Source: Cymbomonas tetramitiformis
Taxonomy: Eukaryota; Chlorophyta; Pyramimonadophyceae; Pyramimonadales; Pyramimonadaceae
Length of the DNA: 64,000 nt
Reading direction: 5' to 3'
Assembly: GCA_001247695.2 (NCBI GenBank)
Contig: LGRX02035463.1
Location: 1 to 64,000, forward strand
Shown here: positions 14,380 to 57,589 of the stretch, piece by piece
Layout of the letters: each line of letters begins with the position of its first letter
Position numbering within the stretch: the stretch's first letter is position 1
Program-made: the position numbers and the translations under genes
Notes under the pieces: generated by a model
The model's database searches: none
Told to the model about the DNA's origin: nothing
What the model saw: only the letters and a program-made list of their open reading frames with translations

Positions 14380-15414
14380 ATGTTCGACGTGGAGTCCCTT
14401 CAGTTAAAGATGAGCACTGACGACGTCGGATCCACTTATCGTGACTTCCAATTAGACCTGACGGATTGGCAGACCATCCAGCACGCGGTACGTTGACGTT
14501 TCTTCATGTTTGAGCCGCCTTGACTTCAGTGGTTGTGCAGTGTAGGTAAAGGGTGAAACGGCTGGTAGCATGTTGTGAAATATTTTATATCTTTTATTAG
14601 CTACAACGAATGCTCAGTGTTCGCGTGGGGATGCCTACAGCTTCCAGTTTTGCAGCCGGTGTATGACTACACCAGGATCATCCAGGGCACCAAGTATGTC
14701 ACAATGTCGTTGGTGTTACCCATGACCGCCTACCTCATCGAGTGCGAACTGGATCCCACTGTGGACTTGGTGTTGGCCGATGGATCGGTACTTCGACATT
14801 CTAGTCTAATACCTGCTGTGCGCACTGGTCGCGAGGCCATGCACGACGAGTTCGTTTAACGGTGGGTGAACGACTTGAGCATGTCCATCCTAGAGGACTG
14901 CATCGTGTCCACGCTTCTGGATCCTCGCTTTAAAAACTGGGACTTCGACGGCTGCAACATCTACGACGGTGGCAACATGACGCGTGATCGGGCCATGAGC
15001 CTTTTGAGAACTGCATGGACCAACTTCAAGCCCACCGTGGCTGCCGAGGCTGCCCGCTCACCTGCTGTGCAAGCCTCCGATCCCCGTTCATTTGGTGAGG
15101 CATCTTTCTTGAGGAAAAAAACGGGGGCTAGCACACCTGTTGTGAAGAAAGATCAGCTGGATTGCTATCTTTCCTTGCCCCAAGAAGCTAACGAGGACGG
15201 TTTTGACGTGATGGTGTGGTGGAACGAAAAAGCCAAAGACCTGCCTGATGTTTTCCGCATGGCTCTTCAGTTTTTAGGATGCCCTGCAACTACTGCGGGT
15301 GTTGAGCGGACGTTTAGTGCAGCGGGCAGAATGCATGACGACCTGCGAAAAAACACTGAGGAGGACACTTTGGAGCATATGCTCAGGGTTAGAATCAGTG
15401 ATTGCTGCGAGTGA
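14380..15414 (+). pseudogene. hAT-family transposase remnant (C-terminal half)
   Basis: Exon 14380-14487 (MFDVESLQLK .. LTDWQTIQHA) joins in phase across a GTACGT..TTGCAG intron to 14656, giving PVYDYTRIIQ and then TMSLVLPM, the usual core segment of hAT transposases. An in-frame TAA at 14857-14859 breaks the frame, which then continues unchanged (RWVNDLS .. LLDPRFKNW) to the C-terminal dimerisation region at about 15250-15414 with LGCPATTAGVERTFSAAG and DDLRKNTEEDTLEHML. The N-terminal BED finger and first catalytic Asp are not visible, so about half of a 600-700-residue protein remains. The stop codon and missing N-terminus mark it as dead. No matching terminal inverted repeats were identified. 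Confidence 0.8.
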
Positions 15415-16998: not shown

Positions 16999-17461
16999 GA
17001 ATTGGGGTCAGCCAGCTATTCTCACCAATCAGCGTACCCCCCCCCCGCCAGCGCCAGCGTCCTATGGAATCGCGAAGAATTAGCAATCACGATCTCTTGA
17101 TCCAGCCAGCTTATTTCTTAGCCGTAGACGGTTCACTCACCCCATCCAGCTCAGCCAGTTTCTTAAAAATCTTAAAAACCATCGCTGAGGTTGAGATTGA
17201 TATGGTTTCTAGCTAGTGTGATAATAACTTTCATGTGCCATCGATATTTCCGAAGTGCATCTTGCTAAGAACATTAAAAATGTTGTATCGCATGATAACT
17301 TTTGAAACATAAGAGTCGTGGGGGTTAAATGGATATCAGTTGAAAATGTCCCAGCCAAGTTTTCTTAACATAAGAAATTGGAAAATCGCCTAAAATTCTC
17401 TTCAGCCAGCACCCACATTTCTTATTTTCGAGTATTCCATAGCTCAAAAAAACCAGCCAGC

Positions 17462-17987
17462 TGTAACAAACGCCGGCTTCTCATGGTACCGCGCCGGGTT
17501 TGTTCAGCTGGTGACACGCATGACAGTGGTGACAGTATGACAGGCTTTGCGAAGATGACCATCTGTGAGATGCGGACTTGTCAGAGAAGATATTGTCAAT
17601 ATCAGGTTACTGAGGAATGATACGATGACGACGGCAGTGACTCCTTTGCCACTGACGTGTCAGTCAGAATGTGTTAAGCGGTAACAGTATTAAAGCTGGC
17701 ATGGAATAATGACTTTCCATTGGCCAGATGAAGATTCGAGGGCTAGAACCCGTTACAGTTTTGGAAAATGTGACAGAGTATTGAGAGATAAGTGACCTCT
17801 GACCGAAGGTCAGATCAGTGGACTCATTATTGTTTTGCCTTCGCAAGTACTAGGTGGCTGTTCGCGTGCCAGTGCTAGAGTGCTAAGACAGTTCTGCTCA
17901 CAGCTTTTGTACACACAATAATTCGTATTTTGTGATATAATATCAATTTTGACGGATATATTTTACTGCTGTTTTCATACTTTTTCA
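17462..17987 (+). repeat. 5' LTR, lacking its first 212 bp
   Basis: It starts TGTAACAAACGCCGGC and ends CATACTTTTTCA. It aligns with 33222-33744, the second part of the complete LTR, with most differences between about 17540 and 17800 and a nearly identical final 170 bases. The first part of the LTR (TGTTGGAATCTGGGC and on) is missing here. No usual tRNA-complementary primer site (TGG..) is obvious after 17987. Confidence 0.8.
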
Positions 17988-18101
17988 AAACAATAATGTC
18001 CTGCGCGGAGCGGCTTTTTATTTCAGTGTTAATCCGGAAGTGAAGGCCCTTTGGCGAGAAGTTAGCAGTAGTTGAAAGAGCGGATTCGGAAGTCAGGCGA
18101 C

Positions 18102-18825
18102 TCCAGGGGCACCCACGGTGCACTGGCGGAACCTTTTTCTTCCCTGAGCTTGGTGGTACTTGCACTGGAAGAGCTTTCAGCAACAGCGGCGACGGATCAG
18201 CTTTGAATTCACCAGACATGAGCGGCCTCCTTCTGAACAGTGATATGCTCAACACCTTTGTCTTCAGCGAATCCAGGGGCACCCCTGGTGCACTGGCCTA
18301 GCTGCTGACAGGTGTCCTTCAGTTTTTAAGCTAATCAGCACTGCATGAGCTTGGGCGGCGGCAGCGACAAAGTCAATCAGCAGTTAATGTACACCTGGAT
18401 GAGCAGCTCTCAGTGGTTCTTTCAGCTGACCACCCTGCTTGAAGTGAATCCAGGGGCACCCCTGGTGCACTGGCTTAACTGAAAGGCAGGTGTGTGTCAC
18501 CTGGGAGCTAATCAGCAGCGGCATCTGCCCTGTCTTACCGGCTAAGAGTGGATCAACAGCTGATGTGCACCTTGATGAACTATCTTCCAGTGGGCTCTCC
18601 AGCTGGCCACCTTGTCTGAAGTGAATCCAGGGACACCCCTGGTGTACTGGCTTAGCTGAAAGGCAGGTGTGCTTGGCCTGTGAGCTAATTAGCGGCGACA
18701 TCTGCTTTTATTTACCAGCGGAGAAGTGGATCAGCAGTGAATCACTGCTCTATGACTGGAACTCCAACTTACGGTTTCTTTGGCAGCTCCACTTTGTCTG
18801 ACGGTTAATCCAGGGACACCCCTGG
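18102..18825 (+). repeat. Five leader repeats (~177 bp) each with a perfect short hairpin
   Basis: The palindrome CCAGGGGCACCCCTGG (or CCAGGGACACCCCTGG) recurs at 18273, 18450, 18627 and 18810, and a diverged copy at 18102, a spacing of 171-183 bp. The flanks are also repeated (CACTGGC.TA.CTGA, GGCAGGTGTG). They lie in the untranslated leader between LTR and gag; a role in packaging, dimerisation or internal initiation is possible but not shown. Confidence 0.85.
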
Positions 18826-18971
18826 TGTACTGGCCTAAGCCTGAAGCAGAGGAAGAGCTTGCTAGAGGACTGGCAGCTGCATCAACTCTGAAGGCGACAA
18901 CTGAGTGGTTTATTCCCTGGTTTGACACAGTGACCTGGTGAATTTAGAGTTAATTACGTTTCCAGCCTGGA

Positions 18972-21900
18972 GTGCTGCTCACTACTGGAGTGACCTTCTG
19001 CTGTCTTATCACAATGTGTTGGAGAATTCTTCTATCCTTTCTACAGTGCTGGTCAACCGAGCTCGAAGCTAAATTCTTGATGAAGGGCACCAAAGAGAAA
19101 GAAGATCTCTTGATCGCCAAGCCGCAGACCAACGAGCAGGACGGTCTCACCTACGTGAAGAGCTGTCGTCGCAGGGAGGCAGCTCTCAACACCGGCAGGA
19201 GGGTGGAGGACTCCGTCGTCAGGCAGAACATCGAGGAATGCATTAAGGGCCTGCGCATCAAAGAATACCGAGATCGCGTGTCCGAGCAGCTGCGCGTCAG
19301 TCATCCTGCCCCCAACAGGGTTACTTGGGAGGACCTCGAGGTGATTGTGGAGGTGCAGGACAAGCTCAAGAACGATGCAGAGGCTTGGGCCCTCACGCTG
19401 CAGCAGGAGCTGGTTCGCAGGCTCAACTGCGTGTACTCCTGCTTTGAGGCCAGGCAGATGGGGCTTGACCTGTCTGCGCTGGTATCAGCCATGAGGCGCT
19501 CGGGTTCTGCCTCCAAGACTGGGGACAGACGCAGGGACCCCAGGAAGAAGGAGCAGGCACAGCATGGTGGCGACGACGCCAAGAAGCCTGTGAGGGAAGC
19601 GAATAATGCCGAACGTCAGAAACCTTCTTACAGCAAGGTGCCACCACCTGATGCTTCGAAGAAGTTTCAGTGTGACTGGTGCTTTACGCGCCTGCCTCAC
19701 TCCCCAGATCGCTGCTACACGGGGTGTCGTGATTCCCGGGTGACGCCCAACTTCCATAAGGACAGGCAGAACTCCAAGTGGCCAGATGAGGTTAAGAATG
19801 CCCAGATGCGTGCCTACAACATCGCACACCGCTTTGACAAGCACAAGATGGGGATCACCACCAAGGAGTGGCTTAAGCTCCCGGAGGCCAAGCAGAAGCA
19901 ACCACAGCAGCAGCAAGTGGCTGCCAGTGCCGAGGTTAAGGAGAAACTCGCCGCAGAATTGTCAGGCCTCCAGGCAGGGTCACCTCCAAAGGATGACGAG
20001 ATCGCCGATGCACAGGCTCTATCAGAGGCCAGCGATGCGGATACCGAGTACAACTCCAACTTCACCCAACAGGCAGAATACGAGGAGGATGAGCAGGACT
20101 GCCCTGCTGGGGGTGGATTGGGAGGTGGTCATGGTGTTGGCATCGATCACGCACCGAGCCTCCAGGCCAGCGCCGCTGTCGCCTTGGGCAACACTCAGCA
20201 GATGCGGGGCTTCCAGGTCAAGACGCCGGAGGAGTTCGACAGGGCCGCTCAGGTGCCTAGAGCCGTCCCTCCCGACGTGCTCAGCAGGAAGGTCCACCTG
20301 CTGGCATCGAATCTTCGCAGCTCTGTGCGTGCCTGCTCGCAGATCGCTGCCATCCTGATATCCCAGAACGCCATTGATCTCCCGAAGGACATCGAGAATC
20401 TTGTGGCACTTGAGGAGCTTCTGGGCAAGGATCCGAATGACGCAGCCGAACAGCCCGCTGAGGTCAATGAGCATGAGTTGGAAGACACTCACGCCGCAGC
20501 GACGCAAGGAGCAAGCAGGGAAGCAGACGGTCCAGGACATCGTGCAACCGAGGAGATGCCGTTGGACGAGATGCCCAGCGGGGTGGTCGACAGCGTCGCC
20601 GCTCAATGCGCAGCTGCTGCCTACGTGGACGATCTGGGGGTGGTTGACTTCAGTGACCATGGACATGTGCGAGCTGGTACCATCAAGACCTCCGCTTACG
20701 ACGCACTGAGGGCAAAGATGGCGCAGCATCTGACCGACGAGCAGGTGCTATTGATGGCTCAAGTTCAGCCCATCTGCAAGTTGCAGAATGCCACTCTATA
20801 TGAGGGGCTTGCGCTGGTGTCATCCGGTGGCGAGCTTATGCTGTACCGGGCAATCCTCATGGACACCGGCGCCAACTGTAACATCATCTCGATCTCTGTT
20901 GTGAGGCGGCTGGGTCTCACGATTTACGAAGCCACCACCGGCGCCAAGGTCACCAGATGTGACAACAGTCCCACAAAGTTCACCCATTATTGCTACGTGG
21001 ACGTCATTCTGGCAGCGGGCACGCCGCACATGACGCTTCACCGCTTGTATGCCTTCGTGACCTTCGAGGCTGAGAACTCGTGGGACCTGCTGATAGGTAC
21101 TGGGCCATTGAAGAACTCCCTGATGATTGATATCAAGCTTGGGAGTGGAGTGGCCGTATCACATGCGCCAACGATCCTGGGCATGAACGCCCAGGTGGTG
21201 CTTCCGCTGGTGGACATGACGCCACCCAAACGTCCTGACCTGCCCAGGCGCGTGGACCCGGTGGTGTGTCTGCAGTCAGAGATTTTCGCAGGATTGGAGT
21301 GTGATTGGCTGAGGCACACGCCTCTGAGCACGAGCGAGGAGAGATTCGCGGCTTCGGGGATCCAGTGTGAGCACATCGATGACCATGACGAGTCACCGGT
21401 GACGTCACAACCTTCTTCGCCGAGACTGCTTGCTGATCTCCCACGACATCGAGTCGCCACACAAGCAGAGATTCAGGAGCAATGTCGCCGTCAGACGTGC
21501 TCTCTTGAAGGCGGCCGACGTAGTAGCCTGCCGTCGCTGACGCCCGCCGTACAGGCAGCGTCGGAGCACATGCTCGAGCAGTTCTACAAGGAGCCGGACC
21601 CTTGGAAAGGTGGGCACGCTAAGTGGGTCACCGACTGGACACGGAGTCCTTCTCGGGTAAATGCTGGGGACCATCCGTCTTTGGATACCCCGCTCGATTA
21701 TCATTGGGCGGACCAGAGGCTGTATCTAGACCGGCATCACGTCGCGCGCCTCTGCCGCATCCTCCAGAATCCCGCCCAGGACATGCCGAGCAGACCCTCT
21801 CGTGAGCATGTCTGCGTGGAGTTCGCCCGCTGCCTCGAACAGAAGTGGGTGACGATGCACCAGCTGATGACCCCGAACTGGCTGCATGTGGACCAAAAGC

Positions 21901-24110
21901 TGAAGCACGACGATCAGAAGAACTGCTGGGTGCTCGATGGCGACTACATGACGAATGTACCGTCCTCGGCCAGCAAGCAGGACGTCGCCAGGCCCCGGGA
22001 GAGCAGGTCGCAGCTAGACTACAACCCAATCCAGAGGCTGCAGAGCACGCTCCAGTCGTTGCTCAAGTACCCCAGTGGTGAAGTCACTGGCACCCTTATG
22101 TGGGATTTGAGGAAGCGCGTCTTCTGTGTTCAGCCGAGCGCAGCCACACAGCAGCTCGATCTGCTGCATTGCACGTTGTCTCATGTGCGCGTGTCCAACC
22201 GTGAAGAGGTGCTGGACGAGCTCCAGCTCCCTCACTGGTACGAGAGTACGGGCGTCTGGACGTACCAGTTGCTCAGATACCTCTGCCCAGTGGACATTGA
22301 AGCTCTCTCTGATGGCATACTCCGTCAATATGCTCGACATGGCGGCGAGAGACCGCCTCTGGAGCTCGTCTTCTCGGATTCCAGCACCAAGTACTACCCA
22401 GTGGGGGATGGTCTTGGGGGGCCTGGCAGGGTGTTCTCCGAGAATGCTGCCGCCCAGGAGTACCTGCGCCTGGGGGAGATGCGGAAAATGCTCAAGTCGG
22501 TCGACACCAGGCAGCAGGGCCACCAGGCGCTCTATGCAGACGCAAAGCGCAGGCCGCCACCGTCTAACGACATGGCTCATTTACGGCTCACTAAGCGTGC
22601 CCCTGCGCGGCCACCTGTCCCTGCCGCTGTGGCGGGACCATCTAGGGCTGCCGCAGTACCGTCCCAGGCTGTAGCAGGCCCATCTCAGGCTGCCGCTGGC
22701 CCGTCTCGTGCCAGGTCCGCCAGTGACTCGCCGCCACGCTCGTCACGCGTCCGCGCCTTCCAAGCCCTCAAGCATGGGCCTACGCCATCGCCGGCATCCA
22801 GCGACGGTGAGCCCGTGGACGATTCTCGTGCGTTGTCATCTCAATTCGTTTGCGCCGCTGCCGCTCGTCCTTCTCAAGGGGAATCACCCCCTGCATCGCC
22901 TGCTGTGAGCAACGATGGTACATGGGCCAACTCGATCCGGGTCCCGCGTGATGCCCGACCACGTTCCTCGGGAGGCGCGCCGTCTACGCCTCCGAGCCCG
23001 CCGCGGGCGCGTCAGCTGTCTCAGTCCCCTACAAGGGCGCCTCCATCTCCGGCAGGGTCGGATTGGGATGCCGTGCAGATGGCCACCTCATCCGTCAGTT
23101 CGGTGGGCAGGTTTCTGACCGTGGCGGAGGTGAGCAACTTGAGGGAACGCCGCAACCTCACCGTCTTCATGGTGAAGTTTGCCGTGGCGCATGCGAACCG
23201 CTGCCGGGACCAGCGGATCGTGTATGAACTTGGCGTGTGCAACCAGGAGCGAGGTCTCAGGCTGCGGGACTATCCGGGCATCACCAGCGCAGTCGTCAAG
23301 AAGCACAACAAGACCATCACTTGCGGGCAGCGGGGCTGGCGCCTCCCTCTTGGGGGACAGACGACGTCTGCCAACCTGCTGGAGGCCATCATGTCAGCCT
23401 ATGCTGATCTGTCGCATCGTGGCTCAGGACAAACGCGTGGCGCAGGTTATGCGAGGAACGTCGAATTCTCGCTGTGCAAGTGGGTGGAGCTTGGGTCGGC
23501 GCACGTGCTGCGCTGCATGGCGCATCCAAACGCCACGCCGGTGCATTACATCTTCATGGATGATCAGCGGTGTCTGTCTTGGCGCACGGAGTTCACGAAC
23601 GATTACCTTGTGCAGGACGACCGGAAGTTCATATGCATGCAGTGGGGTTACGCAGAATCGGCCGCGCCATGGTTGCAGACGGCCCTGCGCGTCTTGGAGG
23701 CGCGCCTTCTCCCGCCACGGCCGCCCAACCGTGAGGCTCGTGTGGCCGTGAGGCCGGAGCACGTGGATACGAGCTGGGCAAGGAATGTGGACGAGGTTCG
23801 CGACCCTCCTGCGCGTCGTCAATGGCCGCCTTCCCCCGGGGCGTTCGAGCATCAGCCGATCGTAGGTGGTGCTGCGCATTCGCCTGCTCCTTCCGTTGAC
23901 CGCCATGGAACTGCTACCCATGTCGTCCCCGCGCCGAGCACGTCTAGGATGCCGGCCAGCCACGCCTCACAGCGTCCTCCTTCTCCAGCTGGCTCGAATT
24001 GGAGTGAGGCTACACAAGCGTTTCAGCACTACACAGACGAGCAGCGTGATCAGCGACGGCAAGCGCATTTTCAACAGGGCTTCCCGGGCACAGCGGGCGG
24101 GCAGCCCTGA
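18972..24110 (+). CDS. gag-pro: gag-protease polyprotein of the gypsy element
   Basis: Frame of 1712 codons; the first ATGs in frame include one at 19080 (MKGTKEKEDLL), a plausible start. Residues about 30-170 are charged and helical, like a capsid region. A zinc knuckle-like stretch lies at 19670-19725 (CDWC .. H..DRC..GC). The aspartic protease active site is at residues 629-636, ILMDTGANC with Asp about 631. After it come about 1000 residues without a known fold, including a Pro/Ser/Ala-rich region (22600-23050) and a conserved-looking block at 23090-23450. PPSPAGS occurs twice (near 23043 and 23983). The ORF ends TGA at 24108-24110, and the pol ATG overlaps this stop as TGATG, suggesting stop-start coupled re-initiation rather than frameshifting. 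Far longer than a normal gag-protease. Confidence 0.85.
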   Translation: MLLTTGVTFCCLITMCWRILLSFLQCWSTELEAKFLMKGTKEKEDLLIAKPQTNEQDGLTYVKSCRRREAALNTGRRVEDSVVRQNIEECIKGLRIKEYRDRVSEQLRVSHPAPNRVTWEDLEVIVEVQDKLKNDAEAWALTLQQELVRRLNCVYSCFEARQMGLDLSALVSAMRRSGSASKTGDRRRDPRKKEQAQHGGDDAKKPVREANNAERQKPSYSKVPPPDASKKFQCDWCFTRLPHSPDRCYTGCRDSRVTPNFHKDRQNSKWPDEVKNAQMRAYNIAHRFDKHKMGITTKEWLKLPEAKQKQPQQQQVAASAEVKEKLAAELSGLQAGSPPKDDEIADAQALSEASDADTEYNSNFTQQAEYEEDEQDCPAGGGLGGGHGVGIDHAPSLQASAAVALGNTQQMRGFQVKTPEEFDRAAQVPRAVPPDVLSRKVHLLASNLRSSVRACSQIAAILISQNAIDLPKDIENLVALEELLGKDPNDAAEQPAEVNEHELEDTHAAATQGASREADGPGHRATEEMPLDEMPSGVVDSVAAQCAAAAYVDDLGVVDFSDHGHVRAGTIKTSAYDALRAKMAQHLTDEQVLLMAQVQPICKLQNATLYEGLALVSSGGELMLYRAILMDTGANCNIISISVVRRLGLTIYEATTGAKVTRCDNSPTKFTHYCYVDVILAAGTPHMTLHRLYAFVTFEAENSWDLLIGTGPLKNSLMIDIKLGSGVAVSHAPTILGMNAQVVLPLVDMTPPKRPDLPRRVDPVVCLQSEIFAGLECDWLRHTPLSTSEERFAASGIQCEHIDDHDESPVTSQPSSPRLLADLPRHRVATQAEIQEQCRRQTCSLEGGRRSSLPSLTPAVQAASEHMLEQFYKEPDPWKGGHAKWVTDWTRSPSRVNAGDHPSLDTPLDYHWADQRLYLDRHHVARLCRILQNPAQDMPSRPSREHVCVEFARCLEQKWVTMHQLMTPNWLHVDQKLKHDDQKNCWVLDGDYMTNVPSSASKQDVARPRESRSQLDYNPIQRLQSTLQSLLKYPSGEVTGTLMWDLRKRVFCVQPSAATQQLDLLHCTLSHVRVSNREEVLDELQLPHWYESTGVWTYQLLRYLCPVDIEALSDGILRQYARHGGERPPLELVFSDSSTKYYPVGDGLGGPGRVFSENAAAQEYLRLGEMRKMLKSVDTRQQGHQALYADAKRRPPPSNDMAHLRLTKRAPARPPVPAAVAGPSRAAAVPSQAVAGPSQAAAGPSRARSASDSPPRSSRVRAFQALKHGPTPSPASSDGEPVDDSRALSSQFVCAAAARPSQGESPPASPAVSNDGTWANSIRVPRDARPRSSGGAPSTPPSPPRARQLSQSPTRAPPSPAGSDWDAVQMATSSVSSVGRFLTVAEVSNLRERRNLTVFMVKFAVAHANRCRDQRIVYELGVCNQERGLRLRDYPGITSAVVKKHNKTITCGQRGWRLPLGGQTTSANLLEAIMSAYADLSHRGSGQTRGAGYARNVEFSLCKWVELGSAHVLRCMAHPNATPVHYIFMDDQRCLSWRTEFTNDYLVQDDRKFICMQWGYAESAAPWLQTALRVLEARLLPPRPPNREARVAVRPEHVDTSWARNVDEVRDPPARRQWPPSPGAFEHQPIVGGAAHSPAPSVDRHGTATHVVPAPSTSRMPASHASQRPPSPAGSNWSEATQAFQHYTDEQRDQRRQAHFQQGFPGTAGGQP

Positions 24111-27100
24111 TGCACAACCGGCGCTGTGGCCGTGGGCTGCCGGCACGGGCAGTCCACTTGCGGCCGGAGGTCCTGCGAGCGTGTATCTCGTTTGCGGGCA
24201 GTGCAGTGATTTGGTGGTGGTTGGTACGAGGTACCGTGCCCATGGTCGCCGTCTGGGCGATGTGGGAAGCAATATCGTGGCACTTAGCATGGTGCCCTTT
24301 TCGCATTTGGTGGGGGCGCTGTGTGGCCTCACTTTTGAGCTGGCTGCCGATGTGGTGGTCGGCTGCTCGACGTTATCCCCGTCGTGCGTACTATAACGTT
24401 TGGGTCTTATGGGCCCTCGCCTGCATTTGGTACGTTGGGTTGCTTGTCGTGCGCACCACGGGCATCTATGCTGGCGTGCACCGTGTTCATGACGAAGGAT
24501 GGATGGTAGTGCCCCTACGGGCTGTGGTCATTTCCTTGGCGTGTTGGTCGCAGTGTGCAGCCGCCCTCCTGATCGCAGTCCTTGCTTGGCTTTGGGTTTG
24601 TGCCAGCGTCTTCGCGGAGGATGTGGCGTGCCATGCCCCTCATGTCCCAAGCGACCATTTGGACACGCATCACATTCGACGTGGCCATGGATGGGCTGTT
24701 CCGTCCCTACGTTGGTCTCAAGTTTTCTTGTTGGGCCGCGTGCGTCTGCCCGCTTTGCCGGCCAGGTTGGACAAACCTCGCTTTGCGGCGCGCTGGGCGC
24801 AGCTTCAACGCAATCTTCGACTTCATTGCATCGCACAGGCCACCTACGTGACGCTGGTCCTTGCGGTCGTGGTCTTCACCGCCGCTGGTGAGAGTACTCG
24901 CTTGGCGCACGGGGGGTGGAGAGTATTGGCGTGCTTCTTCGCTTCGAACTCGCCAGCAGCCGCAGTGCGTTTCAACAGAATTTTACGATTTTTTCTGCTT
25001 TTGTGCGGAATTTTGTGGGTCGCTGGCAAGCTGGCTGAGAGCGTGCCCATGTGCGATGCCATGTCGCCCACGCGCAGTGCTTGGGGTAAATCCCCCTGCA
25101 CTTCATGGGAGGCCCAGCAGTCCTCGAGGCAATGGGAGCCGGGCTGGGAAGCCAACATCGCGGAGCAGGATGAGGTCTTGCCGTACACCGTGCTGGACGA
25201 GCTTCAACCTTTGGGTGACACGACAGTGACCAAGGACGAGGCAGCGTGGCTCGACACTGAGCTCAATGCCACGTTTGGAGGACATCCTGACTTCAAGGAG
25301 GAACACTGGGAGGAAATGCGGAATGTTCTTCGCAGGTGCAAGACCACCTTTGCCAACAGCCCTCACGATCTGAAAGGCTACAAGGGCAAAGCGAAGCACA
25401 ACACGTTCTCCATCCCTTTCGTAGACGAATCCAAGGCCGCCTACCAGAGACCTAGGAAGTACAGTCCGGGCGAGCAGGAGATCATCGATATCCATTGCAA
25501 GGAACTTTTGGAGTATGGTTTCATAGAGCCAGCAGCCAAGCATTGCAGGCATGCGAGCAACGTGGTCGTAGCTGGCAAGAAGGATCACGAGACTGGCCTG
25601 TGGACTCAGACGAGGTTCTGCGTGGACCTCAGGGGTGTCAATCGGCACTCCCTCAAAGACAACACGCTGCCGCACCGACCAGAGGAGCTCTACCAGAAGG
25701 TGGCCAAAGCCAAGTTCAAGACCACTTTGGATGCCACCAAAGCTTTCCACCAGATCCCCATGGCTACAGAAGAGGACAGGAGCAAGACGGCGTTTTGGTG
25801 GAAGAATCAGCTGTACCAATACACCTCGATGCCTTTTGGTGCAGCTGGAGCTACTTCTGCGTTCGTAAGAATCATGGACTACGAGTTACGGCACTTGCAG
25901 CATTGCACGGTGGCGTACGTCGATGACGTAGTGGTCTATACGGATTCCACGCCTGAGCAGCATTTGAAGGACGTTGAGGATGTACTCCGCACCTTGGGGG
26001 ATGCTGGTATCCGTTTGCATGCAGGCAAGAGCACTTTTGGTGCAGCCACGGTGGACTTTCTGGGCTATCGTATTGGCCACAACTCCATTGGCGCGCAAGA
26101 AGCCAAATGCAAGGCCATACAAGAGCTTCCAAGCCCTCAGGACAAGACTGGGCTCCGCTCGATCTTGGGTATGATGAACTACTACAAGGGCCTGGTGGGT
26201 GAGCCAGGGGGGCCAAACTACTCTGAGATGGCCCGCCCTCTCAACGACTTGCTCAAGAAGGAGGTCACTGACATCAAGGCAGCCTGGGGGAAGCAGCAAG
26301 ATCAAGCACTCCAAGAACTTAAGGATGCCCTCTGTTCTGGGAGGTGCCTGAGGCCCATCGATTACGACAGACCTCTCATATTGTACACTGACTGGAGCAC
26401 CTATGGCATTGGCGCAGTGCTGGGCCAAAAGGACGATGACGGGAAGGAGTACATTTGTATGGCAATCAGCCGATCTCTGAGTAAAACGGAGAGACAGTAC
26501 GCCAGCTTCAAAGGTGAGATGCTCGCAGTGGTATGGGCAGTGCGCACGTTGAGGCAGTACTTGCATGGAGTCCACTTCACCTTGGTGACCGACCACTCAC
26601 CGCTCACCACCCTGATGGAGAAGGCCGATCTCCAAGGGCAACATCTACGCTGGGCAATCAGCTTGCAGGAGTTCGACTTCACGGTGCAGTACCGTCCAGG
26701 AGCTAAGAACAGCAACGCTGACGTGCCGTCTCGCTACCCACTGCCGTCCACGACAGATGAGACTGGAGCAAGGCATGAGAGGGAGAAGGTGACTGCGTTT
26801 CACGCAGGCGTGGGGGAAGTTCACACGAAGGACTTCTGTGACCACTTGTGCCTTATGTTGGCTGGGGATGCTTCCCCAGGGGAAGAGGCCACGCCAGAGG
26901 TGCAGGTTGCCAACTACTGCAGGATGGCTGCCATGGAGCAGCTTGGTACAGGACCAGTGCATCGTCTGTTCGATTTGCACTACCACGAGGAATTAGAATG
27001 CAATCATGGGAACATGTTCGACACCGACTTGCCCGAGCTGGTGACCGACTCTGGGAGGCTAGCCAGAGCAGCTTGGAAGGCGCTGAGCCTGGTTAGGCCA

Positions 27101-28638
27101 ACGCGAGGCACGCATGGCGAGGGAAGCCCTGCTGTGTACAGCAATGAGTACTTTGAAGGTGAGCGCATCCTGAAGCCCGAGAAGGTCGACACCAGGGTGC
27201 TGAGCAGCCGATTCTTCTCGCAAGCTCGGCAGGAAGGCGTGGTGTGCTACGAACCATGTGGAGGCCTATGTGCTGGGCTGGAAATGTTGCTCCGCAGTGG
27301 GATGAAGGTGGATCGCTACCTGTATCAGGACATATCCCCGAGCAGTCAGACGGTTGCCAGAGCCAGGTGTGCGGCATTGCTGAGACGATACCCTGACCTC
27401 ATCTCGCCCCATGCAATAGAGCTTGGGGCTTTACCCCAAGACCTGCGCGAGACCACCAGCGCCGACTTCATACGAGCAGGAGCTCTTCAAGGACGCCAGT
27501 GGGTCATGGTATGTGGGTTCCCATGTCAGGATCTCTCCCCTGCTGGAACACTCACAGGCCTGGATGGCAGGCACAGCAAATTATTTTATGAAGTGGTCAG
27601 GCTTCTGTCCACACTCCAGCAGCTGCAGCGGCAGAGGCCTCCAGGTTATATCCTGGGAAATGTTTCTCCGTTGTCGCACAGACCTGGAACCAAGATCAGG
27701 GACGAGGTGTTCCCGTACATTGCCAGCGTCATTGGTAGACCAGTATCCTTTGATGCAGCACAAGCAGGCGCCTACGCACATCGGTTGCGGGCGTATTGGA
27801 GCAACTTGTTCCAGAGCCACCAGTTTCGCTCCGTCATGAGCAAGGTGGTGAGACCAGAAGGACGAATTGTATCGTCAATTATATGCAAGGGCTGGCATCC
27901 CAGGCCAGTGATAAGGACAGACCGCGCGCCTCACTACGTGGTGAACGTGGTGGGAGAACCATTGAGGGCATTACCCACCATCATGGCGACGCAAGGGTCA
28001 AGAGCGTTCAGAAGAGCGAGGATGGGCACCGTGGTGCGCAACCAGGACGGCGAAGACGCCGAGGAAGAATCTCGAGAAGTTAACCTCGAAGAGAAGACGC
28101 GAGCCATGGGCTACAGCGCAAGTGAGCTACGCATGGCCGACGGCCTAAGTGACGTAGAATTGGCGAGCATTCTGGGCCTGGCCATGGATCGCAGAGCAAT
28201 GGAACTGCTGATGGCAGTCGCAGAAGCAAGCAGGAAGGGGCTTCCTCACAGCAAGGAATCCCCAGAGGCGGAGAATTCCCCAGGACAGCCCATCGCTGTA
28301 GACAACAACTGGGCAGACCACGAGAGGTCGGACCTTCAGCAGAGGGAAGCTTTGCTGGCGGAATGGGTTGAGAATTCGAACGCATACACCCAGCAGGTGG
28401 CGAAGACTATGACCCATCGCGACTGGGAGGAGAAGCTGCGGATAATGTGCTCGCAAGGGCAGAAAGGCGCAGAAGGAATTGGAGCCCAGCGACAGAAGGC
28501 TGAAACCAAGAAGAAGAAGAAGAACGAGTGGCAGCTTTACACCATGGCGCAGTATCGTCAGAGGCACGAGAACCACTTCGTGAAGGAGGGCGCGATCCCA
28601 GCAGCGCACGTGGATGTGCCTGCCTGGAGTCCGCCTAC
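24110..28638 (+). CDS. pol: pol part 1: membrane segments, reverse transcriptase, RNase H, C5-cytosine methyltransferase
   Basis: It starts at the ATG overlapping the gag stop. Residues 25-310 hold about five strongly hydrophobic segments (for example VVISLACWSQCAAALLIAVL and ILRFFLLLCGILWVAG) before the RT. RT spans about 430-730 with FCVDLRGVN, TLDATKAFHQIPM and the catalytic YVDD near 604. RNase H follows (YTDWSTYG Asp 761, then GEMLAVVWA Glu and VTDHSPL Asp). At about 1040-1260 lies a C5-cytosine methyltransferase domain: YEPCGGLCAGLEMLL (motif I region) and GFPCQDLSPAG with catalytic Cys 1139. Motif VI reads LGNVSPL: the Glu of the usual ENV is Gly 1183, probably inactivating. A lysine-rich linker follows. 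The frame runs unbroken to 28638, where a hAT element interrupts it; the frame after the insert (30316) continues the same protein. Confidence 0.9.
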
Positions 28639-30307
28639 CAAGGCATGGTATCGAAACTTTTCGACCGTATCGATAGTTTTCGATAAGTTTCGAATGAGTA
28701 TCGATCGATATGAATATGTCCGATATCAATATCAATCGATATGAATAAGTAGTGTGTGAATATCAATCGATATGAATAAGTGCGATGCTGATATCAATCG
28801 ATATGAATAAGTTCAATGTTGATATCAATCAATATGAATAAGTGCACATTTTTTTCGACTTATCGATATATTGATATATCAATATGACCTGAGTGCACAG
28901 CTGCACACATTGCAAGCAAATACACAAGGCAATGAAAAAATAATAATGAATTAGACCAAACAATGCTATCTAAAACTCTACAGTGTTAAGGCATGCCATC
29001 ATGGAATGCTCAATTGTGCCTTCTGTAAGGCCTTTCCTTAAGTCAGAATGCATGGCCCCCACCTTAGAGAAGGCGCGCTCCACACCTGCCGTGGTAGCAG
29101 GCACAGCTAGAAACTGGCGCGCCATCCTACCTACGTTCGGGAAGTCCTTGCTATGGACTTTCCACCAGGCAACGAAGCAAGTCACTGTCACGGGGCACAT
29201 CAGGCACCTCTAAATATCTAGTAAACTCGTCCTTTTCCTCTACCCCTACAACATCCTCTACGGCACCATCTTCCTCATCTGAGTCAGCAAGATATGATGC
29301 TACGGTCACAACCTGCTTGCTAGTCTTTGCTTTTTTCTTAGATGAGCTGACCTCGGCAACACCCTTGGGCTTCCAATCCATCTCGAATGCCTTACGAGCC
29401 CACTTCACGGCGGGTTTGTGAAGTCCGAATCTCCGCAGTCTATGATACGACACCCACTGTGCATAAGATATATGATGGCGTAAAATTGAAATAAGACGCT
29501 ACAACCTTGAAAAGCAAACACACCTGACTCTTCTTCTCTCTCTTTCCTTTTTTCCTTTTTCTCCTCCAAGTTTTTCTTCGCAATCTCATCCTGCTCCACT
29601 TCTGAACGAGTGCGGAAGGCTTCGATCTCGGCTTCATGACCTGGTAGATTTTTCAGTGGCTCCCACGTATCGGTGCCTTTTCCTAAACCCTTCCATTTTA
29701 TGAGCCACTGTTGCTCCCCATAACTACTTCGCGTCCCGAGAATCTGTTCTACCTCGTATTATTCCTTATCGTCACTGCCAGCGGCATCAAAGGGATTCAG
29801 TTGCGTACGTTTCACGGGCCCTTTGCCTTGCGCTAAACGGACTTCCGGCCTGCTCTTGCGTGGACGTTGACCCTGTCCGCGAGCACGACCCATGGTGGAT
29901 GGAGTTGGTCTGCTGGATGAAATGTGACGGTGCGGTTGCGGCTCATAAATTATGGCCCCCCTATGAAGCTAGGAGGTACGTATACCAGGATCTGAATATG
30001 GCTGTTCGACCAACATAAATCCAGTATTTGGGTAATCTAAGATCGATTAATCGATTTGAGTATCGATTAATCGATATGGCCAATCGCGGAACTTTAATTT
30101 TGTATGATCGATCGATATGAATAAGTGACCTGGAGGTATCAATCGATATGAATAAGTCCCCAAGGGGTATCGATCAATATGAATAAGTAGTCCAAGGGTA
30201 TCAATCAATATTCAATATTTCGATATGTACCAAATTCATATCAATAAATAAAAATTAATCGAAATATCGATAGTATCGAAAATATTGAATATCGATACCA
30301 TGCCTTG
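28639..30307 (-). mobile_element. hAT transposon inserted in gypsy pol
   Basis: The ends are CAAGGCATGGTATCGA and its exact complement TCGATACCATGCCTTG, flanked by the 8-bp direct repeat CCGCCTAC (28631-28638 and 30308-30315), the hAT hallmark. Removing the insert and one repeat keeps the pol frame. Subterminal repeats with the core ATCGATATGAATAAGT occur four to five times at 28700-28845 and three times at 30110-30190, in the same orientation at both ends. Total 1669 bp, encoding a deleted transposase on the minus strand. Confidence 0.92.
28973..29893 (-). pseudogene. Chromodomain-hAT transposase, internally deleted
   Basis: Reading the minus strand from an ATG at 29893, a basic N-terminus (MGRARGQGQRPRKSR) leads to an in-frame TAA near 29760. 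The frame goes on with YEVEQILGTR, WLIKWKGL, TWEPLKNL and EAFR, a canonical chromodomain (binds methylated histone tails). A coiled, charged segment follows, then a donor (TCAG/GTGTGT near 29520) and an acceptor near 29458. The second exon (WVSYHRLRRF .. KKKAKTSK .. EFTRYLEVPDVP) reaches the hAT C-terminus, which after a frameshift near 29200 gives FLAVPATTAGVERAFSKVGA and DLRKGLTEGTIEH. The catalytic RNase H-like centre is absent, so this is a non-autonomous deletion copy with a stop and a frameshift. The chromodomain does not show as an open frame because of the stop. Confidence 0.8.
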
Positions 30308-30315
30308 CCGCCTAC

Positions 30316-30913
30316 CAGAGAGTCAGAGATGAGGCTCCCCAGGTTGACGTGTACCACCAGGTTCGAGGACCTGATGGCCAGCGTGGCCGAGCAGCAGGCA
30401 GATCGTGACAAGCATCGAGATGTACACGATGATGCATGGTGCCTCAGATGGTTGAAGTCCAATGGTAGAGTGAGGTTGCCCGAAGAGGAAGTTCGTCGAG
30501 TAAGGAGGCGAGCAGCACGACATCGATGGGACGAGGCCACGGACGAGATCTACATGGTCACTATGTCGGGCAAGGAGGTGAGAATACCTAAGCCTGGTGA
30601 CCGTCTCGCGTTGGTTAAGGAATACCACTCCAGAACGGGACATTGGGGCATAAGGCGGACGCAGCATCTTTTGTGGCAGCGCCATTGGTGGGCCGACTTG
30701 AAGAAAGACGTGGAGGCTGTGGTCACTCAGTGTGAGACCTGTCAGCGTGTGAAGACTCATTACGCGAGAGAGGAGGCATGTTTGTCCCCCCTTGAGATCG
30801 TGTCGTTCATGTATCGCTGGTCGCTGGATCTGGCATGGCCCTCGAGGAGAGAGACCAAGTCTGGCAACAACCGAGTGCTCATCATGACCGAGCAAGCTAC
30901 ACCAGATTCATAG
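30316..30913 (+). CDS. pol: pol part 2: integrase zinc finger and start of catalytic core (frameshifted)
   Basis: This continues the frame of pol part 1 directly after the hAT insert. It contains the integrase HHCC finger (YHSRTGH .. CETCQRVK, about 30625-30750) and the first part of the catalytic core with the first Asp in RWSLDLAWPS. The frame ends at TAG 30911-30913, but the protein similarity moves to the next frame close to 30890, consistent with loss of a single base. The rest of the integrase is in the following entry. Confidence 0.85.
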
Positions 30914-32970
30914 TCTGCGTGCCCATTCCCGACAAGGAGGCGAGCACCATCGCAGCGGCATTTCGCAGTCATGTCCTGGCTGTGTTTGGTGCGCCAGCAG
31001 AATGCTTGGTGGATGGAGGTAAGGAGTTTGAAGGCGAGTTCAAGCAGTTGTGCAGAGATTGCCTGATTGACCGGCGAGTCACCTCGCCAGACTCACCAGA
31101 AGGCAATGGGCTGACCGAGCGAGTGGTACGCACTATGAAGTTCTGCTTTAAGAAGCTTGCCTTGGAGAAGGGTCTCGATTATGAGTGGGATGAGCAGCTT
31201 TGGCCACTGGTGCTGAGCTATAATGCAGCACGCCAGGAGTCCACGGGGGTGGCGCCGTTCACCATGTTGTTCGCCCAAGAGGCAGTAGTGCCGCCTGATT
31301 TGAAACGGGCACCCAGCATAGATTTTGCTGTGGAGGTCGAAGATGAGAAGGATGCCAGAGTCAAGGACCTCCTCCAGAGAGCACAGGTGGTGAGGCGACT
31401 GATGGTACACGCTGGTTGCAGCCTGGAGGTCGCGCAGCATCGTGACACATTACATTACGAAAGGAGAAGGGGTGGGGGCTACGAGCCTAGTCCACACCAG
31501 TTCAAGGTGGGCGATTTCGTCTATATCAGGCAGAAGCCCCGCAGCGGCATGGAAGTCGCGACCAAATCCGCCATCCTGAAGCTGGTCAAGATACGGCGAG
31601 ATGGTGTGGTGGTGCTTGAGGACGCCACCAAGTTAAGAGAGAAGAGCACCGTGCAGAGCATCGCGCCATGTCACCTACAGGTGAAGGATCAGTATGACTG
31701 CAGTGCAGCCGTTCCCAGTAAGCACCTAGCATGTGAAGTTTGCAGGAAGACCGATGGGGAGGCAGAGATGCTGTTGTGTGACACGTGCAACAGGGGGTAT
31801 CACTTGTGGTGTTTGACCCCAGCACTGGATGGAGTACCAGAAGGTGAGTGGCTATGCCCCATGTGCTCAGGCACGGGGAGGCAAGCCGCCAATGCCGAGG
31901 TGCAGACCCAGAAAGACGAGAGCTCTGGTGCCCTAGAGGACAAATTGGGCATGAAGGAGCAGCAATTGAATGAGAAGCTGTCGGCGGAGATGCGCCTGTT
32001 GCCAGCAGACGTGGGTCCTCGTCGGGTGGTGAAGGGAGACAAGTTCCAGCCTTGGCATGCCATTTCATCGAGAGAGATGCTGTTGAAAGAGGAGGACATG
32101 TTCTTGGGCATGCCAGATCAGATTGATTGGGGAAGGCAGGACAAGCTCTCTGAGGCTGTGCAGATCTTCATGCCAGGGCATTGGAATGAGGGGCATCGCA
32201 CGGTGCTGAGCAAGAAATATCGGGAACAGAAGGCCTTGGCAAGGCATCTGAGGGATGCACCTCTTGTGCCTGCGTTGGCTGAAGAAGAAGTTGAAAGACG
32301 AGGAGAGCTGAGACACATGACTAAGGCTCAGGTGAGAGAAGCTAGCGCGCTGCAGTGGGGGCTTGAACTGGTCATCACAGTGCCCTCTGAGGTGAGGCGT
32401 TTGGCGACAGAGGTGGACTGGAAGTCCGTCGATGGCGTGTGGGACCCATGGGCAGGCACTGGGGTCATCAGTGAGGTGATGGTGGAGCAATGGCCGCAGT
32501 TGAGATTCATGAACAATGACTGGAACTCTCAGTTGGGTTGGTCTGAGGCGCATGACGCACTTCAGCCAGGTAACTATCGTATATGGAAGGAGAAGTATGG
32601 TGTCTGTGACGCAGTGGTGACTTCGCCTTGGTTCGCAGCGCTGGATATCGCGTTTCCGTTGGCAGTAATGGCCAGTCGTGTGGTGGCATGTGTCCACGTT
32701 CCATCTTATTACTTGACAGACATGACCGAGAGCAGGGCTGCGTACTTCAGACGATTGAGTCAGACAGGACGCTTGCATGTGATTGGGCATCTGGAACATG
32801 GACCTATTGGCCGCAGGTGTATGTGGGTCTTGGTGTTCAAGAACCCATTGATCAGAGCCAGAATGTTACAAGGCGGAGAAGGTGAGGGCATTGGTATGTT
32901 CACTTTCAGTTTGGGCAAGTTCATGGCAGATGGTGATACGACCCAGTATGCTGAGCAAGCCCACATTTGA
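30835..32970 (+). CDS. pol: pol part 3: integrase core, PHD finger, amino-methyltransferase-like domain
   Basis: Coding in this frame becomes meaningful at about 30890 (YTRFIVCVPIP). Integrase supplies the second Asp (CLVDGGKEF) and Glu (SPEGNGLTERVV) of the D,D,E triad, then an SH3-like tail (FKVGDFVYIRQKP). Residues 299-347 form a PHD finger (CEVC .. LLCDTC .. YHLWCL .. WLCPMC), a reader of histone H3 tails. Residues about 520-680 look like a class I S-adenosylmethionine methyltransferase: VWDPWAGTG (Asp 537, cofactor loop), then VVTSPWF near 594 in the position of the D/N/S-P-P-Y/F/W motif of amino-methyltransferases, then a strand-rich end (CMWVLVFKN). The second Pro of that motif is Trp, so activity and N6/N4 specificity are uncertain. 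The ORF stops at 32970, just before the purine tract and LTR. Confidence 0.85.
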   Translation: MALEERDQVWQQPSAHHDRASYTRFIVCVPIPDKEASTIAAAFRSHVLAVFGAPAECLVDGGKEFEGEFKQLCRDCLIDRRVTSPDSPEGNGLTERVVRTMKFCFKKLALEKGLDYEWDEQLWPLVLSYNAARQESTGVAPFTMLFAQEAVVPPDLKRAPSIDFAVEVEDEKDARVKDLLQRAQVVRRLMVHAGCSLEVAQHRDTLHYERRRGGGYEPSPHQFKVGDFVYIRQKPRSGMEVATKSAILKLVKIRRDGVVVLEDATKLREKSTVQSIAPCHLQVKDQYDCSAAVPSKHLACEVCRKTDGEAEMLLCDTCNRGYHLWCLTPALDGVPEGEWLCPMCSGTGRQAANAEVQTQKDESSGALEDKLGMKEQQLNEKLSAEMRLLPADVGPRRVVKGDKFQPWHAISSREMLLKEEDMFLGMPDQIDWGRQDKLSEAVQIFMPGHWNEGHRTVLSKKYREQKALARHLRDAPLVPALAEEEVERRGELRHMTKAQVREASALQWGLELVITVPSEVRRLATEVDWKSVDGVWDPWAGTGVISEVMVEQWPQLRFMNNDWNSQLGWSEAHDALQPGNYRIWKEKYGVCDAVVTSPWFAALDIAFPLAVMASRVVACVHVPSYYLTDMTESRAAYFRRLSQTGRLHVIGHLEHGPIGRRCMWVLVFKNPLIRARMLQGGEGEGIGMFTFSLGKFMADGDTTQYAEQAHI

Positions 32971-32995
32971 GTCTGTGCTACTGCACGCAGCAGCT

Positions 32996-33007
32996 ACAGA
33001 TGGGGGA
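32996..33007 (+). other. Polypurine tract of the gypsy element
   Basis: A purine-rich run ending GATGGGGGA lies immediately before TGTTGGAATC at 33008. This position fixes the true start of the 3' LTR at 33008, not at the shorter block starting 33222. Confidence 0.65.
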
Positions 33008-33744
33008 TGTTGGAATCTGGGCTTGCATGTAAGAGTTCAGCGTTCGATAACAGGGTATCAGAATTTTAAAAATTTTGTAGCTCTGCGATCTTATGCTGTG
33101 TTGAGAATTGCTCGATCAGTTACCGGCACCAGTGGATATTAATGATGCTTATGATCAGTCGCGAGTGTTAAGTTCGTTCGATTCCGAGATTGTACCATCA
33201 TATGCACGCGTTTGCGACAGCTGTAACAAACGCCGGCTTCTCATGGTACCGCGCCGGGTTTGTTCAGCTGGTGACACGCATGACAGTGGTGACAGCATGA
33301 CAGGCTTTGCGAAGATGACCATCTGTGAGATGCAGACTTGCCAGAGAAGATATGGTCATATCAGGTTGACCAGGAATGATAAGATGAAGATGGCAGTGAC
33401 TCCTTTGCCGCTGACGTGTCAGTCAGAATGCGGTAACGGTAACATTGTTAGAGCTGGCATGGAATAATGACTTTCATTGGCCAGATGAAGATTTAAGGGC
33501 TAGAACCCGTTACAGTTTTGGGAAATGTGACAGGGCATTGAGATATAAGTAGACTCTGACCGAAGGTCAGGCTAGTGGACTCATTATTGTTTTGCCTTCG
33601 CAAGTACTAGGTGGCTGTTCGCGTGCCAGTGCTAGAGTGCTAAGACAGTTCTGCTCACAGCTTTTGTACACACAATAATTCGTATTTTGTGATATAATAT
33701 CAATTTTGACGGATATATTTTACTGCTGTTTTCATACTTTTTCA
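33008..33744 (+). repeat. Complete 3' LTR (737 bp)
   Basis: It runs from TGTTGGAATCTGGGC to CATACTTTTTCA. The part 33222-33744 matches the 5' LTR remnant (17462-17987). The part 33008-33219 matches 33745-33956 with about two differences. Confidence 0.8.
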
Positions 33745-33956
33745 TGTTGGAATCTGGGCTTGCATATAAGAGTTCAGCGTTCGATAACAGGGTATCAGAA
33801 TTTTAAAAATTTTGTAGCTCTACGATCTTATGCTGTGTTGAGAATTGCTCGATCAGTTACCGGCACCAGTGGATATTAATGATGCTTATGATCAGTCGCG
33901 AGTGTTAAGTTCGTTCGATTCCGAGATTGTACCATCATATGCACGCGTTTGCGACA
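33745..33956 (+). repeat. Extra copy of the first 212 bp of the LTR
   Basis: It directly abuts the 3' LTR and repeats its first part (TGTTGGAATC to TTTGCGACA), then changes to flanking DNA (CAGCTATTCTCG). Together with the 5' LTR, which lacks exactly this part, it completes one LTR. Confidence 0.85.
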
Positions 33957-34007
33957 CAGCTATTCTCGACAACTTCGGTAAAAAAAAAACTGGCTGGTTT
34001 CTTATCG

Positions 34008-57414: not shown

Positions 57415-57589
57415 GTTCTTGAAACTTCTTGCGACTTCTTAATGCCATTTTCATTGATTATGCAATTTATAGTGCAAGCCCGTCCACCTAGCCGTGCTAC
57501 ATGCCATAAGTCCTTTATGTTTTCAATAGAATATTCTTTTGTGCGTTTCCGCTTTTTTACTAAGTGTTGGCTCTTTACTTTCCATTTTA

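Follow-up and report, generated by a model that had tools for sequence, protein, structure and literature searches.

Retroelements that carry a cytosine methyltransferase have been described in two lineages; the puzzle they pose is why an element should carry an enzyme that silences its carrier. De Mendoza et al. 2018 (PMC5890265) describe KnitGypsy-Dnmt3 of Klebsormidium nitens, in which Gypsy domains are combined with DIRS-like repeats, and SymbioDIRS-Dnmt3, whose enzymes performed de novo CpG methylation in yeast and are a precedent for activity. DIRS/PAT elements also carry a methyltransferase domain (PMC4157794), given in PMC5890265 as the Dam-like adenine type. A 2025 survey of eukaryotic DNA methyltransferases (DNMTs; PMC12344493) places some DNMT3s in retrotransposons of streptophytes and dinoflagellates, and Cymbomonas is not mentioned in its passages on these elements. 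For Cymbomonas tetramitiformis, Burns et al. 2015 (PMC5741210) report scaffolds of more than 10,000-fold coverage with chromodomain, RNase H and cytosine methyltransferase sequences, and a 2023 study (PMC10675990) gives 15.3% for long terminal repeat (LTR) elements; the passages of PMC11244446 and PMC9998398 that touch the subject have no bearing on the domain combination reported here. We analysed a stretch of 64,000 nucleotides of C. tetramitiformis (contig LGRX02035463.1, hereafter the window). Positions 17462-33956 are a Ty3/Gypsy-type retrotransposon with split direct repeats, and its pol adds to the usual enzymes a DNMT3-like C5-cytosine methyltransferase, a PHD finger and a second, amino-type methyltransferase-like domain (MT2). 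Public records assign proteins of this element to Cymbomonas tetramitiformis, and one of these proteins, P0047, is 100% identical over the 356 amino acids of the C5 region searched.

The order in pol is reverse transcriptase (RT), RNase H, DNMT3-like C5-methyltransferase, DDE integrase, PHD finger and MT2, with the coordinates given in Table 1. The original prediction, made from the letters alone, had placed a C5-methyltransferase between RNase H and integrase and had named such retrotransposons as known from Klebsormidium; KnitGypsy-Dnmt3, as described in PMC5890265, agrees with the latter. The former is supported by PF00145 (DNA_methylase, 1.6e-7 on the window open reading frame (ORF), aligned part 27503-27691) and by DNMT3A, the nearest solved relative (best 1.7e-5), with the HaeIII and HhaI methylases much weaker. 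The domain sits where it was first placed, at 27240-27880, and as a whole it is longer, about 27230-28235. Its motifs are YEPCGGLCAG (27248), GFPCQ (27515), GNVSP (27656) and HRLRAY (27779). Motifs I, IV (PCQ), VI (ENV) and VIII of the DNMT3 class are present, the class being assigned from the nearest structures and these motifs; motif VI is ENV in 10 of 11 copies and GNV in the window copy alone. When 41 C5 sequences were aligned, an EN[VTSA] motif was found in all 41, and the catalytic site was PCQ in 22 and ECQ in 18. Glu-Cys-Gln for Pro-Cys-Gln at the catalytic cysteine is unusual in C5-methyltransferases. A search of viral contigs with the C5 domain gave one pattern match and no confirmed one.

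Downstream of the integrase, the predicted PHD finger was recovered by PF00628 at 2.1e-12, and its nearest solved counterparts are those of CHD4, KMT2C, WSTF, KMT2D and ATXR5. PHD fingers with the H3K4me3 cage carry Trp at the position preceding the YH pair; the residue there in the element is Gly, from which we only infer that the finger might suit a reader of unmodified H3K4, like the DNMT3 ADD domain. No chromodomain was found in ORF1 or pol with Pfam at E up to 1, and the PHD finger stands after the integrase instead.

The nature of MT2 comes from its relatives. An alignment of 15 MT2 family sequences was prepared and each sequence was scanned singly, with matches listed up to E of 10 for PHROGs and Pfam and 1 for PADLOC. 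Two families annotated as DNA methyltransferase, PHROG_799 (best 2.2e-7) and phrog_11619 (best 7.9e-4), were each matched by 7 of the 15; the D12 N6-adenine methylase family PF02086 was matched by 5 (best 2.3e-4), and PADLOC mad2, which we take to be a DNA methyltransferase, also by 5 (best 2.6e-6). PADLOC gave in addition a type I specificity subunit for one member (0.0039). Four of six full-length relatives gave PHROG_799 at E up to 0.01, each in the expected position and with about 70-90 residues aligned (P0022, for one, at residues 317-386 with 3.7e-7), and P0028 and P0083 did not; PF02086 scored 12.9-17.5 bits in full-length relatives against a cut-off of 22, with the window sequence unmatched. 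The family shares DP[WF]xG (motif I), an ND-x-NP element, DALQP, SPWF (motif IV) and RRCxWLxVF, and its alignment is conserved at columns that include the glycine of motif I, the ALQP element and the proline of motif IV. UniRef labels four Cymbomonas MT2 fragments (P0112, P0113, P0116, P0118) 'Methyltransferase'. We conclude from these matches that MT2 probably descends from amino-type (N6-adenine/N4-cytosine) DNA methyltransferases. The amino-methyltransferase-like domain that had been predicted past the integrase is thus upheld through the PHROG_799, mad2 and D12 matches of the relatives, and not through the window's own sequence.

Other searches with MT2 gave little. Its profile, run against 5.8 billion proteins with lengths near that of the domain, gave 22 matches, all Cymbomonas, EukProt or metagenome records, and no clear free-standing cellular parent is among these length-limited matches. 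A profile search of PDB returned a ribosomal protein (7.9e-4) and NDUFV2 (0.99) alone, and both were judged spurious. In NCBIfam the family had no significant match, the best being malonyl-ACP O-methyltransferase at 0.056. Viral contigs gave 48 pattern matches with none confirmed. A tblastn search of phages with one MT2 segment gave only matches at E=3, in eight Listeria phage records; they lie over a gene called DNA methyltransferase in two and a hypothetical protein in six, and we do not count them as evidence.

The same domains are present in other copies of the element. The genome searched was the 851.7 Mb assembly, where the window copy lies on contig C25274. The B|A junction of the terminal repeats occurs 1,334 times at up to two mismatches, with 0 for the control; as an occurrence may stand for a 3' end, a join between tandem copies or a fragment, the number is not a tally of intact copies. 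Among the 62 genome matches listed for the C-terminal ORF (window included), identity is 95-100%, 61 are free of stops, and 29 lie in an open frame of 2413-2415 amino acids. C5, integrase, PHD and MT2 are all present at 97-100% amino-acid identity in each of 10 other copies, which were picked for this open frame. C25352 (loci L009 and L010) is an uninterrupted copy: its ORF1 has 1978 amino acids and its pol domains stand in a single frame, with Pfam matches to RVT_1 (1.9e-22), RT_RNaseH (9.6e-33), DNA_methylase (2.5e-9) and, downstream, Integrase_H2C2 (4.9e-16), rve (3.5e-7) and PHD (1.6e-11). The family is very abundant and recently active.

Selection was evaluated by the pooled pairwise ratio of nonsynonymous to synonymous change (pN/pS), using gap-free full-length domain matches; the pairs are non-independent and the figures descriptive. 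The values are 0.049 for MT2, 0.077 for the integrase core and 0.079 for PHD (19 copies each), and 0.126 for C5 (11 copies). MT2 is therefore the lowest of the four domains tested, and none of the four has a stop; most of the copies are top matches or open frames, so the absence of stops is partly by choice. We do not think that the choice of copies alone accounts for the low nonsynonymous share. When L032, a copy that has diverged further, is the reference, MT2 stands at 0.040, integrase at 0.064 and PHD at 0.081. All three extra domains are under purifying selection in the Cymbomonas genome. The catalytic-type D and E motifs of the integrase are found in 19 of 19 copies, and the six MT2 motifs checked are unchanged in the same number.

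Beyond the Cymbomonas copies, relatives at about 27-47% identity were found in metagenomes, EukProt, Haematococcus lacustris, Tetrabaena socialis and Chromochloris zofingiensis (record code Chrzof). Among 123 retrieved proteins, RT, C5, integrase and PHD occur together in 19 and all five domains in 11; these 11, none of them named Cymbomonas, have the identical order RT-C5-integrase-PHD-MT2. MT2 is significant in nine of the 11 with a profile seeded without them (3.1e-15 to 5.8e-108), and the five-domain status of P0069 and P0075 rests on the iterated profile only. Distances between domains were compared by Mantel tests, from which near-duplicates at a distance of 0.25 or less in the first domain were removed. 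The coefficient is 0.75 for C5 and integrase (p 0.0002, n 27) and 0.60 for RT and C5, with the range 0.55-0.75 among RT, C5 and integrase; for MT2 it is 0.44 with PHD and 0.35 with C5. This agreement of distances points to C5-integrase-PHD as an old unit. MT2 is old as well, decayed or loosely evolved in many relatives and strictly kept in the Cymbomonas copies read. The combination first proposed, in which a single pol unites C5-methyltransferase, PHD finger and a chemically different second DNA-methyltransferase-like domain, is found in the window, in other copies and in distant relatives.

The element has the layout A1-int-B1-A2-B2, that is, split direct repeats as in DIRS elements. The earlier limits, 17458-33956, are correct on the right; on the left the element starts at 17462, since 17458-17461 is the target duplication CAGC. 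B-A-B order was seen in 18 of 18 fully read 3' ends, including L016 with an internal deletion in B2. A perfect 4-bp duplication stands outside A1 and B2 in 10 of the 11 copies for which both ends were available (TATC, TGAT, CCTG, CAGC, AGTA, AGCG, CGCT, CTGT, CCGA, GAAC), a count that omits one-ended copies (C20187, C21876, C24579, C2047, C25446 and others) and the tandem C23734 and C8678. The sole exception, C19701, shares its left flank with C8722 and is possibly a recombinant. C23734 and C8678 are tandem arrays, in which adjacent copies share one B-A unit. The B1|A2 joint reads ACA-GC-TGT and the outer ends are TGT... and ...ACA; the joint resembles a circle junction with two additional bases. 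A1 and A2 were compared in five copies. In two they differ by one base (1/527, 1/526), so these insertions are recent. In the other three (the window copy; L015-L018) they differ at 29, 39 and 42 positions (5-8%), and B1 and B2 in these three have at most two differences where measured (L016 was not measured). The divergence of A1 and A2 runs counter to the usual expectation of one template for both repeats, and beside nearly identical B1 and B2 it is perhaps due to recombination.

With regard to classification, the order of protease, RT, RNase H and integrase, the nearest RT and RNase H (Ty3-type) and the 4-bp duplication are those of Ty3/Gypsy elements (Metaviridae), whose target-site duplications range from 4 to 6 bp. 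The ends are not of the simple LTR-internal-LTR form, so the element is a deviant Gypsy by repeat layout. Split-repeat ends with a DDE integrase and 4-bp duplications call for a replication model unlike those of standard LTR and DIRS elements. It is very improbable that the element belongs to the DIRS order with only a superficial Gypsy likeness, even though it has the A1-int-B1-A2-B2 layout and DIRS elements are described as carrying methyltransferase domains (PMC4157794). A profile of relatives (A1, mostly full-length relatives and pieces, to which the window contributes PHD-MT2 only) matches Ty3 RT/RNase H (7q5b) at 8.9e-123 and foamy-virus integrase at 9.7e-29. DIRS membership was rejected on these further grounds: no tyrosine recombinase was found in ORF1 or pol with Pfam at E up to 1, the DDE integrase has a zinc-binding domain, and the target duplications are of 4 bp.

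Our overall reading is that the window holds a damaged copy of a Ty3/Gypsy element whose pol adds DNMT3, PHD and MT2, with which it would mark its own DNA and choose its sites; we regard it as evenly balanced between right and wrong. The element may, judging from its domains, write its own epigenetic marks, as the original prediction suggested, and its PHD finger may read a histone mark. Reverse transcription would yield a product bounded by B-A repeats, the ends of which would then be joined. The integrase substrate would be the B|A junction of this complementary DNA (cDNA), and opening one B|A joint would give the observed layout. DNMT3 and MT2, fused to RT and integrase, would have as their target the newly made cDNA or the copy just inserted, and the new copy would enter chromatin pre-marked; possible outcomes are that it is shielded from nucleases or from silencing, or that it mimics host DNA. 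The PHD finger, at the position held by the chromodomain in chromoviruses, would tether the integrase to a state of the histone H3 tail and so lead to insertion-site choice. A more far-reaching version is tentative and, to us, somewhat doubtful: an ancient green-algal lineage would place 5-methylcytosine (DNMT3) and N6-methyladenine or N4-methylcytosine (MT2) on its own cDNA, choose chromatin by PHD and pre-mark its copies, possibly with an activating adenine mark offsetting cytosine silencing.

Several results weigh against the overall reading, most of them on the side of MT2. The window's own MT2 has no match in Pfam, PDB, NCBIfam or PADLOC and only insignificant ones in PHROGs (0.11, 0.27), and the family matches span mainly motif I to IV (about 70-90 residues). 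Motif I, DPWAGTG, fits; motif IV, SPWF, deviates from the usual amino-methyltransferase form [DNS]PP[YFW], in which a second proline stands. Both motif patterns are kept in only 3 of the 11 five-domain relatives (P0065, P0070, P0073), and a complete kit whose MT2 looks intact is therefore not general; in P0083 and P0085 motif I is retained and motif IV is SPFF, and six of the 11 keep neither. Among 41 aligned MT2 sequences, some truncated, both patterns occur in 20. Unlike C5, MT2 has Mantel coefficients of only 0.05 with RT and 0.12 with integrase. The signs of CpG decay are mixed: the transition excess at CpG is 1.9 times in A and in the 5' leader and 1.1 times in B, and the observed/expected CpG ratio is 0.80 in A, 0.40 in the leader and 1.32 in B (whole window 0.87), so that the leader looks depleted and B does not. 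As for DNMT3, a K. nitens enzyme was also tested in yeast, and the passages of PMC5890265 on these enzymes report activity only for SymbioDIRS-Dnmt3 and human DNMT3A.

Given the SPWF motif and the loss of both patterns in six of the 11 five-domain relatives, activity of MT2 cannot be assumed. It is quite possible that MT2 keeps the methyltransferase fold as a non-enzyme, or as an enzyme in some lineages, serving the integrase complex as a part that binds DNA or protein and leaving DNMT3 as the sole active writer. The domain is degenerate or absent in P0062, P0066, P0082, P0084 and P0090, the last four of which we count in favor of this alternative. It is harder to reconcile with the unchanged motifs and the lowest pN/pS in the Cymbomonas copies, and with the conservation of the motif I glycine, ALQP and the motif IV proline across the family. 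Methylation of RNA rather than DNA by MT2, either of the element transcript or of a cap-adjacent base, we consider unlikely: pol products are expected to assemble with genomic RNA, and two of the 15 family members have a weak NCBIfam match to the RNA methyltransferase Trm14 (best 0.058), but the best family matches are to DNA methyltransferases (PHROG_799, and mad2, which we take as one). Retroelements do capture host sequence, and yet it is barely conceivable that the extra domains were captured by chance and do nothing for the element, since the same order is found in 11 proteins not named Cymbomonas and the pN/pS values are about 0.05-0.13. The possibility, raised with the original prediction, of chance or separate insertions absent from other copies was accordingly rejected on three counts: the domains are in each of the 10 other copies examined, in distant relatives, and under selection.

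Table 1. Features of the element in the window (positions counted from the first letter of the 64,000-nucleotide stretch).
Feature	Position	Strand	Basis
Target-site duplication CAGC, left copy	17458..17461	none	sequence
Repeat A1, 5' terminal, starts TGTAACA	17462..17987	+	94% to A2
ORF1: gag and aspartic-protease region, DTG motif by inspection	18954..24110	+	Asp_protease_2, weak (0.03)
pol, first part: hydrophobic N-terminal stretch, RT, RNase H, C5-methyltransferase	24050..28744	+	overlaps ORF1 in another frame
RT	25646-26074	+	Pfam RVT_1 1.5e-22
RNase H	26285-26674	+	Pfam RT_RNaseH 7.4e-33
DNMT3-like C5-cytosine methyltransferase	27233..28235	+	PF00145, DNMT3A match; limits by inspection
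Private hAT-like insert with a terminal inverted repeat, flanked by the 8-bp duplication CCGCCTAC	28639..30307	-	sequence and translations
pol, integrase zinc-binding part; H2C2 at 30599-30757	30248..30913	+	PF17921 Integrase_H2C2 3.4e-17
pol, last part, past the frame break near 30.9 kb: integrase core, linker, PHD, MT2	30796..32970	+	
Integrase core rve	30898-31098	+	Pfam 4.2e-4
PHD finger	31732..31866	+	PF00628 2.1e-12
MT2, amino-type DNA-methyltransferase-like; DPWAGTG 32437, NNDW 32512, TSPWF 32620	32374..32850	+	through relatives
Purine-rich tract AGATGGGGGA, possible polypurine tract, just before B1	32998..33007	+	inspection
Repeat B1	33008..33219	+	2 differences in 213 vs B2
Repeat A2	33222..33744	+	94% to A1
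Repeat B2, 3' terminal, ends GCGACA	33745..33956	+	repeat comparison
Target-site duplication CAGC, right copy	33957..33960	none	sequence

The window copy is defective: the gag start is lost, an insert lies between C5 and integrase, the integrase frame is broken and C5 motif VI is GNV. ORF1, about 1980 amino acids in uninterrupted copies, is without its N-terminal part, and its aspartic protease is matched weakly by Pfam (0.03-0.04). By inspection, hydrophobic, membrane-like stretches lie at 24050-25000 between protease and RT, and similar ones precede the RT or C5 domain in the relatives P0082, P0084 and P0095. The 5' leader (18250-18850) has imperfect tandem units of about 180 bp, about 75% alike, with the motif GAATCCAGGGGCACCCCTGGTGCACTGGC, which were seen in other copies too. 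The span had earlier been taken as one element; this holds for the flanking domains, whereas the 1.7-kb insert, with 31-bp subterminal repeats, is matched in none of the 10 other copies and is no part of the element proper. From its minus-strand readings, a hAT-type C-terminus and a chromodomain-like part (YEVEQILG...WLIKWKG), we presume it to be a chromodomain-bearing hAT. Just upstream of the element, 14860-15414 also reads as what is presumably a hAT-type transposase C-terminus. A second, different methyltransferase retroelement is at 51100-57438 on the minus strand, broken by other sequence at about 53.5-55.2 kb. It has the order integrase (H2C2 2.5e-22), SH3, chromodomain (4.6e-7) and phage-type C5-methyltransferase (PF00145 1e-5, PHROG_757 8e-16); the last seems to have been acquired independently of the DNMT3 in the PHD element, and the whole fits the chromodomain and cytosine methyltransferase sequences reported by Burns et al. 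2015 (PMC5741210).

When compared by description with the nearest element known, KnitGypsy-Dnmt3 in PMC5890265, the Cymbomonas element shares the Gypsy-type pol with a DNMT3-type C5-methyltransferase, the DIRS-like repeat layout and purifying selection on the DNMT (a nonsynonymous to synonymous substitution ratio, Ka/Ks, of <0.2 in that paper). It differs in its host, a prasinophyte rather than a charophyte, in the 4-bp target duplications measured here, and in having PHD and MT2; 'PHD' occurs 0 times in the main text on KnitGypsy-Dnmt3, whose figure may show more domains. The relatives in Haematococcus and Chromochloris (P0084, P0090) suggest a DNMT3-Gypsy lineage wider than one species. SymbioDIRS-Dnmt3 is alike in its DNMT3 in pol and its split repeats A-coding-B-A-B, but it is described as encoding a tyrosine recombinase, where the Cymbomonas element has a DDE integrase and a Ty3-type RT (PMC5890265). 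DIRS/PAT elements share the split direct repeats and an amino-type methyltransferase domain within a retroelement (PMC4157794); as they are described there and in PMC5890265, they have another integration enzyme, one methyltransferase and no mention of PHD. The Chlamyvir-like chromoviruses of Cymbomonas (PMC10675990) are also Ty3/Gypsy with a chromatin-reader domain in pol, which is a chromodomain in their description and PHD in the methyltransferase element. In the open-licence literature we found no description of the PHD or the two-methyltransferase combination, and no co-occurrence of 'split direct repeats' with 'DDE integrase'. In a pol that keeps, under strong selection, both a finger of the histone-reader type and a further DNA-methyltransferase-like domain, the puzzle of the self-silencing enzyme becomes testable. 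DNMT3-Gypsy elements with DIRS-like repeats were, from the published descriptions, already known, and what appears to be new here is the addition of PHD and MT2 to such a pol.

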